From assembly GCA_026196615.1 (NCBI GenBank), contig JAPHSW010000183.1:1-53420 (forward strand): DNA of 53,420 nt. The letters are read 5' to 3'. The notes under the pieces were generated by a model. It was not told the DNA's origin. It saw only the letters and a program-made list of their open reading frames with translations, and did no database searches. The stretch is from Gammaproteobacteria bacterium (lineage in GTDB: Bacteria; Pseudomonadota; Gammaproteobacteria; GRL18). Below are positions 5,499 to 11,250 of this stretch, one piece after another. The translations under genes and the position numbers were made by a program. The first letter of the stretch is position 1. Each line of letters starts with the position of its first letter.

Positions 5499-6584
5499 TT
5501 ATGTATTAGAAGCCTGTGATTTTTCAGTTAATACTGAATTGGGTATCGAAGGCCATGCGGTAATAACTGAATTGACCAATGTCCCAAGAGGAATAGCAAA
5601 AAATACTCCCCAAAAACCCCATAAGCCACCAAAAAATAAAATAGCAACAATGATTGCTACAGGATGAATATTAACAACCTCTGAAAATAATAACGGTACA
5701 ATAACATTGCCATCCAATGCTTGAATAATACCATAAGCAACCATTAACCATGCAAAATCTGAGGTCCAGCCCCATTGAAAAAAGGCGATCAGGGCAACAG
5801 GAATTGTAACAACAGTGGCCCCAATATAGGGTATAACGACAGACAATCCAACCATAATTGATATCAATAAAGCATATTTAAGTCCCAGGAAAGAAAAAGT
5901 AATAAAACACATTACCGAAATAATGGTAATTTCCCAAAATTTGCCTCGAATATAATTACCTATTTGTTGATCCATATCTAACCAGACTTTAGTTGATAAC
6001 TGAGTATTTTTTGGGAAAAAATTCATAAACCATCCTAGAATCAGATCTTTATCTTTTAAAAAGAAAAAGACTAATAAAGGCGCTAAAATGAGATAAATCA
6101 TTATAGTAATACTGCCCTGAATTGAGCTTAATGAAAAGGTCAAAACATGTTTACCCATTGAAGTCACTTCAGATTGAATAAGAGAAAATAATTCCAATAC
6201 AGATTCTTCTGAAATAAAGCTGTAATTTGTTGGGAGTTGTAAAATCAGTTGACGACCTCGCTCAATGTACTTTGGGGTATCAGTAATTAAGTCAGTTATC
6301 TGTTCCCATAAAAGCGGCGTAATGACAAAGAGTGTGACCATTAGAGCCGTTAAAAAACCAACAAAGACCAGGATGACTGAAGCCATTCTGCGCTTAATCC
6401 AATGATTTAAAAGAACAACAATACCTTCTAGAAGGTAAGCAATCACAATAGCTGCAAAAACAGGCGCTAAGGTATCATTAAATGAAATAACAATAGTAAA
6501 TGAGAGTATTAAAAAAACAACGAGAAAAATCACCTGAGGATCAGAAAAATGCCTCTGAAACCAGCGGTTAAAAAGATCTATCAT
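5499..6584 (-). CDS. AI-2E family (PerM/YhhT-type) transporter
   Basis: A 361-residue inner-membrane protein with about eight hydrophobic segments: a cluster at 17-85, a long soluble insert of about 90-150, then a dense C-terminal bundle with the typical GLKYALLISIMVGLSVVIPYIG and VNIHPVAIIVAILFFGGLWGF signatures. The family includes TqsA, which affects autoinducer-2 export, and Na+/H+ antiporters; most members have unknown substrates, so the autoinducer label should not be read as function. The ATG overlaps the TAA of the upstream small gene by one base, indicating one operon with that gene and probably the GTPases. Confidence 0.92.
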   Translation of the reverse strand: MIDLFNRWFQRHFSDPQVIFLVVFLILSFTIVISFNDTLAPVFAAIVIAYLLEGIVVLLNHWIKRRMASVILVFVGFLTALMVTLFVITPLLWEQITDLITDTPKYIERGRQLILQLPTNYSFISEESVLELFSLIQSEVTSMGKHVLTFSLSSIQGSITIMIYLILAPLLVFFFLKDKDLILGWFMNFFPKNTQLSTKVWLDMDQQIGNYIRGKFWEITIISVMCFITFSFLGLKYALLISIMVGLSVVIPYIGATVVTIPVALIAFFQWGWTSDFAWLMVAYGIIQALDGNVIVPLLFSEVVNIHPVAIIVAILFFGGLWGFWGVFFAIPLGTLVNSVITAWPSIPNSVLTEKSQASNT

Positions 6585-6979
6585 TATTCAATCCCATTTT
6601 CTGAGTCATTTTCTAAATCTATATCTGGCTCACGTTGTTGACAAAATTCGTCATATCGCACTTTAAAAAGAATTTCTAATTCATCAATGACATCTTTCGC
6701 TTCACGGCCTTTAAGGATATGTTCAGACATTAGAGAAGCGGTTTCATTCAACATACTATTTTTTTTAAGCATTGGAAAAGTAGCTGATAATCGTTTGATT
6801 GCGGCCACAACTCTTTCTTCTTCTGGGCGGGGAATATCTACAGGCTTATCAACAACAATCAGGCGACCGTCTTGTTTGGCTTTATCCAGCAAAAATTCTG
6901 CGAATGATAGAACACTGCTCTGATCATTTTTATCCAGGTCAGAAAAAATATTCAGTAATTTTGTTTCAGTTTTGTTCAT
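6584..6979 (-). CDS. Conserved-type acidic cytoplasmic protein, function unknown
   Basis: 131 residues if started at ATG 6979; a TTG at 7000 would add seven residues but has no better ribosome binding site. No signal peptide or membrane segment. The N-terminal part contains LSFAEFLLDKAKQ, a short helical motif resembling small DUF2281-like or antitoxin-like proteins, then a proline-containing linker (VDIPRPEEERVVAAIKRLS) and two more predicted helices. The tail is very acidic. It is coupled to the PerM-like transporter by a one-base stop/start overlap and lies downstream of two GTPase genes. I do not recognise a named family. A cytoplasmic partner of the permease or GTPases is a guess from context. 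Confidence 0.8.
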   Translation of the reverse strand: MNKTETKLLNIFSDLDKNDQSSVLSFAEFLLDKAKQDGRLIVVDKPVDIPRPEEERVVAAIKRLSATFPMLKKNSMLNETASLMSEHILKGREAKDVIDELEILFKVRYDEFCQQREPDIDLENDSENGIE

Positions 6980-7039
6980 TTTAAGTAATTGCTTTTCCAA
7001 CGCTTATATTAATCAATCGCACAATGCTGTCATTTTAGT

Positions 7040-8500
7040 CTACATTCCAGCTTTTAACCGCTGCATTATATCACCTTTTGCCTGTTTCAAGATCGAATCT
7101 CTATCAAGAGTATCTAAAATTGAGCGCACAGCTTCTTTAGCGCCACCTTCTCCCCATGATTTTCCCTGTCGAAAATATTGCTGAGCCGCTTTTCCAACAA
7201 CAAGGGTACTGTAATAAGCAACAGCACCTTGAGCGGAAGCAGTAATCACAGTGGATAAACCACCTGTACCTAATTTTAATGCACTGGAAACAAAATGAAT
7301 TCCCCATATGGTTCCTAGTAATAGAACCATTTGTCCGGCAATCGTTTTAATCAATTCACCAGCCTCTGTCTTAGTAAGAGGAAATCCATATAATCTCGAA
7401 AGATGTATTACTAAAGTCACATCAATAATTGCTGCAGCCATTAAATCAGCAATAGGAACAGGATTGATAGCAACAGCCACCCCTTTAGAAACACAATAGC
7501 TATGGTTCAGCTTTTCAGCAACATCCTTTCTCACAGCCATTATTCGTTCACTGACCTGATCTGATAAATCGCCTGCAAACAAACTGGCATTAATTGCAGC
7601 CAGTGTTTTTCCTTCACCTTTAACAATAGACCACAAGCAAATTTTAAGTTCATTCACATCAGGAGGAAACTCTTTACAGGTTTCAGTTTCATTACCTTGC
7701 TCATCAACCAACAAATAATATTTTTCTGTACTACGAGAAGAAGCTGAAATAATATTCTCAGCATCAACTAAACCTTTAACTCTCTGTGTCAAATTGTTCC
7801 GGAGAATTTTTTGTTCTTTTTGAGTATATCGGTCAATTTTATTTAAGACCAATACCACTGGTCTGGATTCAGAGACGACCTGTTTTAATGCCTGATACTC
7901 TGTATCCGTCATATCACTATCGAGAACAAATAAAATGATATCTGAACGAGATGCCACCTCATGCGCCATCTTGGCTCTTAGCTCCCCTTCTATTTCATTG
8001 ATCCCCGGTGTATCAATAAAATACACACCACCTTCTTCATATTCATGCCAATTAGCAAAGGTATTAGTTTTAGTTTCACCATGTAAAGGACTGGTAGTAA
8101 ATTGTTCTTGCCCAATCAGAGCATTAAGTAGTGATGATTTCCCAACGCTGACACGGCCTAAAACAGAAATATGTATGTGTTCATGTTCAATTTTCTCGAG
8201 CATCTTAGCCACTTGTTGAAAATCATCATTCAAAGATTCCCGTACTTGAGAAGGAACTCGCTTATCTTTTAGTAAGTAATTTAAGCTTTCTTTAGCAATG
8301 GAAAGATGATCGTCACCTTTAGATTCAATGTGTTCACTTTCACTATTGATGGTCTGACTACTATCAAGATTTTCTTTACTTAATTTAGATTCTTGAGCTG
8401 ACGATTTAGACTTCATTTTTTTATATGCTTTATCAATCGCTGTTACGGAGCTTGAGGACCAGCTTGATAAAATCTTTTGTGCGCGATTCAATATTTTCAC
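7040..8500 (-). CDS. Era/dynamin-like GTPase with C-terminal DUF697-type membrane region
   Basis: 486 residues from GTG 8500, chosen because AAGGAG (8508-8513) lies 7 bases upstream; an upstream in-frame GTG 8524 has none. After a charged N-terminal segment the G domain shows G1 GRVSVGKS (about 115-122), G3 DTPG (163-166), G4 NKID (220-223) and a G5-like ISAS. The C-terminal third is hydrophobic and helical (VPIADLMAAAIIDVTLVIHL, then GQMVLLLGTIWGIHFV), as in YcjF/DUF697 proteins, ending in a basic tail. The start lies inside the preceding GTPase gene (68-bp overlap, different frame). Such GTPases are linked to membrane or envelope stress, but no exact function is known. Confidence 0.88.
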   Translation of the reverse strand: MKILNRAQKILSSWSSSSVTAIDKAYKKMKSKSSAQESKLSKENLDSSQTINSESEHIESKGDDHLSIAKESLNYLLKDKRVPSQVRESLNDDFQQVAKMLEKIEHEHIHISVLGRVSVGKSSLLNALIGQEQFTTSPLHGETKTNTFANWHEYEEGGVYFIDTPGINEIEGELRAKMAHEVASRSDIILFVLDSDMTDTEYQALKQVVSESRPVVLVLNKIDRYTQKEQKILRNNLTQRVKGLVDAENIISASSRSTEKYYLLVDEQGNETETCKEFPPDVNELKICLWSIVKGEGKTLAAINASLFAGDLSDQVSERIMAVRKDVAEKLNHSYCVSKGVAVAINPVPIADLMAAAIIDVTLVIHLSRLYGFPLTKTEAGELIKTIAGQMVLLLGTIWGIHFVSSALKLGTGGLSTVITASAQGAVAYYSTLVVGKAAQQYFRQGKSWGEGGAKEAVRSILDTLDRDSILKQAKGDIMQRLKAGM

Positions 8501-10130
8501 CCAGTTGCTCCTTATACAAATCACTAATTAACATGGGTGATAACTCACCTGTTACTTCTAAAGTTCTAGCGACTGAACGCCCCAGTGTATCAAAAATCAT
8601 CCCATATGCCACAGCATGCATTAATCCACCAGAAACCGTTCCAATGCCTGGAAACGCTTTAAGACCGTTTCCAGCTATAGCTAACAGCAACGGCAAAGTT
8701 TTATCCATACGAGATTGTATTAATTCAATTAACTTATTAGCATCTATATCGGTTGCACTGACCCCATAGAGTTTACATAAATCCTTAATCATCTGAATAC
8801 CTAGATAACCTTGAACTAATAGATCCGTACCAGGACTAATGGTTGCCATAGAGGCTATTACCGCTTTTTTTGTATAACCAGATATAAGTCGCTTGCTCTG
8901 TGAGTGTTTAAAGCGAGCCTCAATATCATCTAGCTTGTCATTCATCATATTTGAGACAGATTTTTCTCTCAATTGTTCAAATTGTGCAATGCTGGTGTTT
9001 TTCATTAACGTCTGTAATTGATCCTGTAATTTATTTAAGTCTGGATTAATTGCACGTTGCACCCTTTCTTCTACACCATCTGATGTTAAGCGAATAAATT
9101 CACGCACTCCTCCAGCACTGATTGTAATGATTGGTGTATCAGCAGATATTAATTCTTTACCAATTGACTGAATACGTTGCTTTATTCTATCAATAATAAG
9201 CTGCCGCTCTTCTGAACTGTATTGATCAGATTTATTCATCGCGACAATACAAGGCTTTTTGAGTAATAGTATATGTTTTAACTCACTAAACTGTGTAGCA
9301 GTCAAATCACCATCACACAGATAAATAACAATATGAGCACGCTGGACTTCTTCAATTGATAAAAGATCCAACTCAACAAACTGTTCATTTAGACCCGGCA
9401 TATCAGTTAACACCAGCTCTTGTACAAAATTATTCTGTCCCAAAAGAGAATTTTTCAGGTGCCAGTGATAATGAACCACTTCACGAGTTGTACCACCAAT
9501 AACCCCAGTTTCAATTTTATTTGAGTCAGCATAAGCATTTGATGTCTGTTCCTCAGAAGGTTTTAGCTCATCATGAGTTTGAGATATTAATGCCTTTATA
9601 ACGGTGCTTTTACCACAACTGATATCACCAAATAAAGCTATGTACAGTATTTTTTCAGATTTTCTTTGAGCATAATCTTTCAGTTCACCCTGTAATAACT
9701 GCAACTCTGGTGATGATTTAAAATCAATTTCATCTATGTTACCTAAATCACTCATTGTCTTTTTAGAAGGTGTTTCTTTGGAAGAGAGATCAGAGGCCCT
9801 ATGCTCTTGAGTAGAAATTTTCTGGCTTATTTCATCAAATCGTTGCGCTGTCGTTTCAATACTTCTAATAGATTCTTTTTTTGAAACATTTGAAGTTTGT
9901 ACAGTTTTGGAAAGAGGCATTAACAAACGCCAGATCATTCGTCCAAAAAAAGCTGACACAACAATAATGCCAATAGCATAACCCCATATAACCCATTCAG
10001 ATTGTTGTTGAAGTTGTTGCCAAACTGAAAAAGATAAATTGGTAATAAAGAGAATAGCAACAATAAAAACAAAAAATAAAACCAGCAAGGCAAAGGTTAT
10101 TAAAATGCGTGATGATGGCAATCGTTTCAT
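8433..10130 (-). CDS. Membrane-anchored Era-like GTPase with DUF697-type C-terminus
   Basis: 565 residues. Two N-terminal transmembrane helices (about 8-31 and 46-68) are followed by a Ser/Lys-rich linker. The G domain has G1 GDISCGKS (168-175), a G2-like GGTTRE (212-217), G3 DMPG (243-246) and G4 NKSD (299-302). The C-terminal region (about 420-560) is helical and partly hydrophobic (LLLAIAGNGLKAFPGIGTVSG), a DUF697-like pattern shared with the next gene. It is the first of two tandem, diverged GTPases and overlaps the second by 68 bp, so translation is probably coupled. The N-terminal anchors are absent from the second protein, so the pair may act as a membrane-bound and a peripheral partner; that is inference. 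Confidence 0.9.
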   Translation of the reverse strand: MKRLPSSRILITFALLVLFFVFIVAILFITNLSFSVWQQLQQQSEWVIWGYAIGIIVVSAFFGRMIWRLLMPLSKTVQTSNVSKKESIRSIETTAQRFDEISQKISTQEHRASDLSSKETPSKKTMSDLGNIDEIDFKSSPELQLLQGELKDYAQRKSEKILYIALFGDISCGKSTVIKALISQTHDELKPSEEQTSNAYADSNKIETGVIGGTTREVVHYHWHLKNSLLGQNNFVQELVLTDMPGLNEQFVELDLLSIEEVQRAHIVIYLCDGDLTATQFSELKHILLLKKPCIVAMNKSDQYSSEERQLIIDRIKQRIQSIGKELISADTPIITISAGGVREFIRLTSDGVEERVQRAINPDLNKLQDQLQTLMKNTSIAQFEQLREKSVSNMMNDKLDDIEARFKHSQSKRLISGYTKKAVIASMATISPGTDLLVQGYLGIQMIKDLCKLYGVSATDIDANKLIELIQSRMDKTLPLLLAIAGNGLKAFPGIGTVSGGLMHAVAYGMIFDTLGRSVARTLEVTGELSPMLISDLYKEQLGENIESRTKDFIKLVLKLRNSD

Positions 10131-10290: not shown

Positions 10291-11250
10291 TTAAAAATCA
10301 AACTCTCCTGCAGATTCAGTTTCTAACTTACCACCTGAAGCCAAAGTTAATGCTTTTTTAATTGCATCAGGTGATGCCATAATTCCCATAAAACTATGAT
10401 CACCTGCCATTGATAAATCAGGAAAATTAATCGCTATACGAAATTTTGCACTCAAAGCATACACCTTCCCATCTTCATGAATTAACATTTCATAAGGTAA
10501 GTGAGCTGTTGCACGAATATCTTTAAAATCAACTTCCTTCATTATGGTCGTATCATTACTCATATCTGCTTCTGTCATTGCAACGCCAATAACCGTCTGT
10601 TGTTTACCCGGCAATTCCAGTTGAAAAACCTTAGAAACACCACCTTTTTGTTCAGCCAAAGCCGCCGAAACTGTTTTCACTGCTTCTTCATAACTGCCAT
10701 GTTCTGATAAAGTATCAGGTTCATCAAAATAAGGCATGCCAAACATATAATGGTAATCCTCTAAATCCTTTCCAGGGAAACCTTTTTTGGAACCATAACT
10801 TTCTTGTTCACCAAGAGTATTTTTTAGAGCAGAAGCAACATCTTCCATCTTCCCTTCCATTCGATAAGCATTGGCCATATAAACAGGGTTGGTAAATGTA
10901 ACTTGAATACTGCCTTTAACATCAGTCACAGCAACGCGTTGAATAGCACCATATCCACCGAATTTGGTAGCTTTAGCATTACTTTTTAAAGCATCATTGG
11001 TAACAACAATGATATTTGCTCCTTCATAAGGCGCATATTCACCGATGATTTCAAAGCCGCCCGCAGTGAGCTTGGACTTTGTATCTGTAACAATTTGAGC
11101 AAAATCTCCACTCGTTGAACTAGCAAGATAAAATGGTTTTAGATTTTCAGCTTGAACAACTGATGAACTTAAGAGTAAGAACAAAGCAAACATTTGCATA
11201 GAAACAAATGACTGCATAAAAATTGGTTTGGTAAAGAAAGAATTATACAT
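10291..11250 (-). CDS. Secreted protein of unknown function, weakly DUF302-like
   Basis: 319 residues with a signal peptide: a hydrophobic stretch from about 12 to 34, cleavage after VVQA. The body has two similar-sized alpha/beta halves. The first contains KSKLTAGGFEIIGEYAPYEG and a GYGAIQRVAVTD strand. The second contains a DIRATAHLPYEMLIHEDGKV segment, then an ASPDAIKKAL helix; this order of helix, strand and LP-x-x-x-LIHEDGKVY recalls DUF302 proteins. A MAGDH/FMGIM Met-rich stretch lies near the C-terminus. It stands between the GTPases and a FadL-type channel. I cannot assign a function; the DUF302 resemblance is weak and by eye. Confidence 0.82.
   Translation of the reverse strand: MYNSFFTKPIFMQSFVSMQMFALFLLLSSSVVQAENLKPFYLASSTSGDFAQIVTDTKSKLTAGGFEIIGEYAPYEGANIIVVTNDALKSNAKATKFGGYGAIQRVAVTDVKGSIQVTFTNPVYMANAYRMEGKMEDVASALKNTLGEQESYGSKKGFPGKDLEDYHYMFGMPYFDEPDTLSEHGSYEEAVKTVSAALAEQKGGVSKVFQLELPGKQQTVIGVAMTEADMSNDTTIMKEVDFKDIRATAHLPYEMLIHEDGKVYALSAKFRIAINFPDLSMAGDHSFMGIMASPDAIKKALTLASGGKLETESAGEFDF

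Follow-up and report, generated by a model that had tools for sequence, protein, structure and literature searches.

Two diverged GTPase genes that overlap out of frame, followed by a gene for an acidic protein and another for a permease, all four on the minus strand, lie in a 53,420-nucleotide contig of a gammaproteobacterium (JAPHSW010000183.1, assembly GCA_026196615.1; this whole stretch of DNA is hereafter the window) and raise the question of which of them belong together and what they might do. The original prediction, made from the letters of the window alone, took the four as one unit and likened its tandem, unequal GTPases to two-component dynamin-like systems. We find that the two GTPases, here called A and B, are a conserved pair that co-occurs almost all-or-none, and that the acidic protein and the permease are a separate module, which adjoins the pair only in the window's family. 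We tentatively favour a reading of A and B as an obligate heterotypic pair of membrane-associated GTPases of the inner membrane, with a putative role in membrane remodelling or tethering.

8433..10130, minus strand: gene of GTPase A (565 aa, ATG start); from N- to C-terminus a predicted transmembrane hairpin, helices, an Era/dynamin-like G domain (about residues 160-361) and a DUF697-related helical C-terminal region.
7040..8500, minus strand: gene of GTPase B (486 aa, GTG start); from N- to C-terminus a basic, predicted amphipathic N-terminus, a G domain (about residues 109-281) and DUF697 (309-466).

Conservation of the A-B pair

Among 369 genomes of the class, the A profile (at E 1e-15) matches 50, which fall under 26 family labels, and the B profile (at E 1e-40) matches 51. 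Both proteins are present in 49 genomes, A only in one, B only in one, and neither in 318. The two singletons are fragments: that of A belongs to G175, counted as A-only because its match to the B profile is the A fragment itself, and that of B to G259, a genome 55% complete. The two genes are adjacent and on the same strand in 45 of the 49 genomes; they stand 2.1 kb apart in G387 and on different contigs in G061, G091 and G221, the last two from one genus. In the named loci, which are the best 80 of 480 genome stretches encoding an A relative, A is followed by B on the same strand in every case, four of the B genes being cut by the contig end. The tandem of two diverged GTPases described in the original prediction is thus seen well beyond the window.

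Distances among the A proteins are congruent with those among the B proteins (Mantel r 0.91 for 77 pairs, and 0.90 for the 63 pairs from outside the window's family; 0 of 1000 permutations reach r in either case), the mean distance among A being 1.45 times that among B. A tree of 26 pairs divides cleanly into A and B with a support of 1.0. It is this all-or-none occurrence, together with retention of both genes even without adjacency, their fixed order and their congruent distances, that leads us to regard the pair as putatively obligate. Record titles of loci with the pair include Thiohalomonas, lucinid and other symbionts, Thiothrix, Thiolinea, Leucothrix, Thiolapillus, Sedimenticola, Chromatiaceae, Woeseiaceae and one Magnetococcales.

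Domain organisation of the two GTPases

10017..10124, minus strand: hydrophobic segment 1 of GTPase A, residues 3-38 in a Kyte-Doolittle scan (predicted helix 6-41), part of the predicted N-terminal membrane hairpin.
9942..10001, minus strand: hydrophobic segment 2 of GTPase A, residues 44-63 in the same scan (predicted helix 45-70).
8447..8500, minus strand: predicted amphipathic membrane-binding helix, residues 1-18 of GTPase B.

Pfam searches find G-domain matches in both window proteins, and the key residues of G1-G4 hardly vary across 81 A and 77 B sequences (the G1 lysine is present in 80 A, with one gap, and in all 77 B); therefore neither A nor B looks like a pseudo-GTPase. The P-loops mostly read G[ED][IV]SxGKS in A and GRVSxGKS in B, and the dynamin P-loop likewise has a serine at that position. 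Dynamin_N matches 60 of the 81 A and all 77 B at E 1e-4. Sequence searches for solved relatives returned only G-domain and adjoining stretches among the best 60 of 133 matches for window A and the best 60 of 111 for window B.

The original prediction also described both proteins as DUF697-type GTPases. For B this is clear: DUF697 (PF05128) scores 120.3 bits in the window protein, well past the Pfam cut-off of 27.7, and matches 77/77 B proteins at E 1e-4. Window A, at 26.5 bits, stays just under the cut-off, and 25 of 81 A proteins match at E 1e-4. Profile-profile alignment nevertheless joins A to B with a probability of 100% over 364 columns (23% identity), spanning the G domain and the DUF697 region. 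We therefore term A DUF697-related, through its profile, rather than a member of the family.

Two N-terminal hydrophobic segments are found in 75 of the 81 A proteins and none is N-terminal in any of the 77 B proteins, in agreement with the earlier view of A as anchored by its N-terminus and of B as peripheral at its own. At the C-terminus the distribution is reversed, with hydrophobic segments in 75/77 B vs 8/81 A; window B has one such segment further in, at residues 340-359. Its residues 1-18 show a hydrophobic moment of 0.49 (z 2.3 against shuffles) and a net charge of +3, and among 72 B proteins with the start motif the first 18 residues are amphipathic at z >1 in 54. As a separate observation, B in G079 (L132) and A in G075 (L158) are each split into two frames, by frameshifts or assembly errors.

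A dual-coded overlap between the two genes

8433..8500, minus strand: A/B dual-coded overlap of 68 bp, the 3' end of gene A and the 5' end of gene B in different frames.
8508..8513, minus strand: Shine-Dalgarno-like AAGGAG of gene B inside gene A, formed by the Lys-Glu codons of A's YKEQL motif.

The longest open reading frame of B begins at 8524; we chose the GTG at 8500 instead, because AAGGAG lies seven bases upstream and because this start is conserved in relatives. With it, the previously noted 68-bp out-of-frame overlap of the two genes stands. The A motif Y-K-E-Q-L-G-E is encoded in the window by TAT AAG GAG CAA CTG GGT GAA, in which the K-E codons make up the Shine-Dalgarno and the GTG straddles the G-E codons. 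As read from the sequence, the overlap is dual-coded, A's last codons containing the predicted Shine-Dalgarno and GTG start of B. In the 67 of the 80 named loci that were counted, the B motif start lies inside A with an overlap of 65-104 bp (median 71), the start is GTG in 65/67, and an SD-like motif precedes it in 36/67, vs 38/1484 other GTGs within A; these counts are not independent, since the own-family loci are close relatives. The overlap shrinks to 4 bases in L204.

Predicted structures and comparison with known GTPases

The model of GTPase A is good (predicted local distance difference test, pLDDT, 84.9) and shows two N-terminal helices, a G domain and long C-terminal helices. Helices flank the G domain on both sides in the models of A and B, and the structural matches fit well in the G domain only. 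Foldseek lists LeoA first for A, and for B gives IRG GTPases as the top rows, with BDLP and LeoA within the first 19; the high rows over both proteins comprise LeoA, Cj-DLP, mitofusins, BDLP and IRG GTPases. The VIA-align ranking for A is led by translation GTPases and Era, with no dynamin-like protein among the 50 matches listed, which excludes nothing. For B it is led by Era and YsxC, with SynDLP, Fzo1, IniA and Mfn1 present at a root-mean-square deviation (rmsd) of at least 6 Å. Because the alignments fit loosely beyond the G domain and the VIA-align rankings are led by other GTPases, we use "dynamin-like" for a resemblance of layout, not for membership.

The known systems closest in layout include the paired bacterial dynamin-like proteins (Cj-DLP1/2, LeoA/BC). 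In PMC6104087, most bacterial dynamin-like proteins are described as side-by-side pairs, and GTP hydrolysis by Cj-DLP1/2 as dependent on heterotypic G-dimerisation. A and B share with these pairs the adjacency of the genes (45/49 genomes and 80/80 named loci, as above), the long helices flanking the G domain and intact G1-G4, and the likeness seen in the original prediction, of side-by-side diverged GTPases with one anchored and one peripheral, was well taken. They differ from them in having a DUF697-type C-terminus, in an N-terminal transmembrane hairpin in one partner and in a G domain that is nearer Era/EngA by profile, and any neck, trunk or paddle in them would be putative.

IRG GTPases (e.g. 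Irga6), an animal family, likewise place the G domain between N- and C-terminal helices; their IIGP profile in B nearly reaches its cut-off (23.7 vs 24 bits), but the template-modelling (TM) score by query length is only 0.23-0.29. In the paired YcjX-YcjF of E. coli, YcjF is not known to have a G domain. The likeness there is that of a two-protein unit made of a GTPase and a two-transmembrane DUF697 protein, and TIGR01620, which we take to be the YcjF type, touches the transmembrane region of A (residues 17-116, E 2.7e-4) and DUF697 of B (E 9.2e-4). However, the DUF463 of YcjX is absent from the Pfam matches of A and B, which are both full GTPases and mutually related. We regard A-B as a variant of its own within the paired membrane GTPases, its role at the membrane being putative. 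Among the open-access papers listed in our searches we found no function for the pair, and no title on DUF697, COG3597, PF05128 or COG3596 concerned the A-B proteins.

Proposed role of the pair and alternative explanations

In the mechanism we envisage, GTPase A would be fixed in the inner membrane through its N-terminal hairpin, and GTPase B would dock there with its N-terminal helix, which is basic and predicted to be amphipathic, and with the hydrophobic helices in DUF697. A GTP-dependent heterodimer would form between the G domains of A and B, and nucleotide-driven motion of the helical arms would then pull, tether or remodel the inner membrane, or organise a protein patch in it. A bolder version, which we regard as doubtful if still worth entertaining, is that A-B constitutes an undescribed two-component class of membrane-remodelling GTPases, convergent with paired dynamins and mitofusins, built on a DUF697-type fold and composed of one integral and one peripheral partner. 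The production of the two would be coupled in it, because the last codons of the integral partner are the ribosome-binding site of the other.

Several observations weigh against an obligate membrane-remodelling pair. One genome of the window's order, G016, has B, the acidic protein and the permease without A. The overlap is not universal: B begins past the stop of A in L196, L202, L205 and L231, and a gap takes its place in G285 and G380. The model of B is middling (pLDDT 72.1; predicted TM score, pTM, 0.59), with a pLDDT of ~50 at the N-terminus, where the putative amphipathic helix lies, and amphipathicity of this N-terminus is at z <=1 in 18 of the 72 B proteins scored. Dynamin-like and IRG proteins match the whole models poorly (TM by query length 0.19-0.30, rmsd at least 13 Å), a good fold fit to them being limited to the G domain, and VIA-align places translation GTPases, Era and EngB equal to or above dynamin-like proteins. 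By sequence, too, the G domain of window A scores higher with MMR_HSR1, GTP_EFTU and Era/EngA-type models than with Dynamin_N and dynamin models, and that of window B higher with MMR_HSR1 and Era/EngA-type models. Finally, no conserved neighbours of A-B hint at a process, no non-GTPase family occurring in more than 5 of 41 stretches (with a crude picker of open reading frames). The most recurrent family, in 5 stretches, looks like antisense reading frames over A (coordinates were compared for L149), and L156 and L157, two genomes of one family, have several neighbours in common.

A and B could, without bending any membrane, act as a GTP-driven switch, or as an assembly factor, for a complex of the inner membrane that serves transport, respiration or carbon uptake, an explanation to which we give a fairly low probability. 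It draws on the slr1306 family of cyanobacterial GTPases (NF049994), whose model is the top NCBIfam match for both window A (1.5e-23) and window B (6.3e-42). The match extends from the G domain into the C-terminal region, and the model matches 81/81 A proteins at E 1e-5. A 2008 title in the reference list of PMC5472144 calls Synechocystis slr1306 a putative CO2-concentrating component. Every score shown is nevertheless far under the cut-off of 490 bits: 83 for window A, 144 for B, 52-154 overall with 154 for the best relative, and 0/20 genomes over it. The pair is mildly enriched with RuBisCO (34/50 vs 148/319, p 0.006; odds ratio 2.5) and is linked to dsrA with an odds ratio of 2.9, but 12 of the 50 genomes with A lack both, the RuBisCO link disappears among dsrA-positive genomes (odds ratio 0.86) and not significant among dsrA-negative ones (2.1, p 0.10), and no neighbour family recurs beside the pair. 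The sole stratified link under p 0.05 is that with dsrA in RuBisCO-negative genomes (4/16 vs 12/171, p 0.035).

Alternatively, A and B might be Era/EngA-like GTPases of ribosome or membrane-protein biogenesis that are incidentally membrane-attached. Der/EngA gives the strongest PDB sequence matches of both profiles among the matches listed, and Era, HydF-type and EngB models rank high. We consider this unlikely, as the Pfam matches of A and B include no RNA-binding family, a transmembrane hairpin and a DUF697-type region being present instead, and A is found in 50/369 genomes only, unlike a ribosome factor.

A LeoABC-like dynamin system for defence or vesicle release is less probable still. 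The PADLOC LeoBC profile, which has no curated cut-off, matches A (8.1e-17) and B (2.8e-16), and the NCBIfam LeoA model matches 33/81 A at E 1e-5. The LeoBC matches, however, are confined to residues 90-339 of A and 43-235 of B, chiefly the G domain and what precedes it, and the distances of A and B are congruent, as under joint descent. Searches of plasmids with A and of phages with B gave no match at E 1e-20, though the record that carries one locus (L238, NZ_JAFMPM010000005.1) has a title naming it plasmid pTfr446 of Thiothrix fructosivorans.

The acidic protein and permease module

6584..6979, minus strand: gene of the acidic protein (131 aa, isoelectric point 4.7).
5499..6584, minus strand: gene of a PerM-like AI-2E family permease (PF01594).

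The stop of the acidic gene and the start codon of the permease share one base (6584), as had been noted, and the earlier identification of the permease is upheld by a full-length match to AI-2E_transport (PF01594; E 1.3e-66, 225.5 bits, residues 20-344, over the cut-off). The acidic protein has no Pfam or NCBIfam family over cut-off and no solved relatives by sequence.

The acidic gene is present in 133 of the 369 class genomes. In the 30 best-scoring loci from these it adjoins the permease in 26, one exception being at a contig end, and in 23 stretches its neighbours include PhoH (18), LysR (17), an RND adaptor (13), an RND pump (11) and a peroxiredoxin (11). It occurs without A in 104 of 319 genomes, A occurs without it in 21 of 50, and in only 4 of the 29 genomes with both, all from the window's family, does it lie less than 10 kb from A. 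A four-gene unit outside this family was accordingly rejected.

The gene tracks dsrA and RuBisCO-family genes. It is found in 102 of 119 genomes with dsrA, of which 112 score over the family cut-off, vs 31 of 250 dsrA-negative ones; conversely, dsrA occurs in 102/133 carriers vs 17/236 non-carriers. For RuBisCO-family genes, perhaps including RuBisCO-like proteins, the figures are 117/182 genomes with vs 16/187 without, and 117/133 carriers vs 65/236 non-carriers. Each link holds after stratifying by the other; all these counts are uncorrected for phylogeny, and clade membership may lie behind them, because much of the change lies between families.

In the window's own order we surveyed 24 genomes with an A query at E 1e-10, which matches 18, one (G016) only via its B; the acidic protein is in 22. 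The order A, B, acidic, permease is seen in the 14 stretches whose contigs reach far enough (window included), three further A-bearing stretches ending early (L035, L036, L046). Among the 13 own-family named loci (L161-L173), the acidic gene is present in 12, as a 75-aa piece in L164, and the permease in 11, L164 and L167 ending first; neither gene is found in any of the 67 other named loci, some of them short. G005, G006, G007, G017 and G021 keep the acidic gene and the permease and have no A-B, and G001, a genome 79% complete, lacks both A and the acidic gene. Upstream of the acidic gene in G005, G006, G007 and G021 (loci L058, L059, L060 and L062), tblastn detects what is left of the C-terminus of B (33-83 residues), and G005 additionally keeps an internal fragment of B and 34 residues from the beginning of A. 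In the permease tree these genomes take three positions: G005 groups with G007 (support 0.92), G006 is next to the window (0.75) and G021 groups with G018/G019 (0.99). Although the deeper nodes are weak, this makes three or more in-place losses of A-B within the family probable. That two neighbouring genes disappear together is, taken alone, weak evidence that they are coupled.

That the four genes form one system is therefore highly improbable: their order in the 14 own-order stretches and in 11 own-family named loci out of 13 (L164 and L167 being cut short) is set against adjacency confined to the family, the separate occurrence of A and the acidic gene and the in-place loss of A-B alone in four genomes. 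Of the original prediction's expectation of co-occurrence and fixed order, the part that concerns A and B is borne out, with 49 genomes having both, and the part that binds the acidic protein and permease to them fails outside the window's family.

Two further features of these loci were seen. In G015 the acidic copy behind B (L036, G015:C85) carries three stops, and a second copy, with one stop in the match, precedes a permease on another contig (L063, G015:C69). At 10291-11250 the window encodes a 319-aa protein for which Pfam gives no match and NCBIfam none above its cut-off. Within the family its position upstream of the pair is conserved, and in G017 (L061), which lacks the pair, it stands before the acidic gene.

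Implications

The dual-coded ribosome-binding site would offer a clear case in which an overlap is maintained because it couples expression, and the link of the acidic protein and permease to dsrA, if not a clade effect, would indicate an unrecognised accessory of sulfur oxidation. A and B are a good candidate for a heterotypic membrane machine, kept together even when their genes are not adjacent, and one that is testable, because named genera in culture (Thiothrix, Thiolinea, Leucothrix) carry relatives. If the proposed role is true, many sulfur-oxidising and related gammaproteobacteria would own a machine that shapes their inner membrane.

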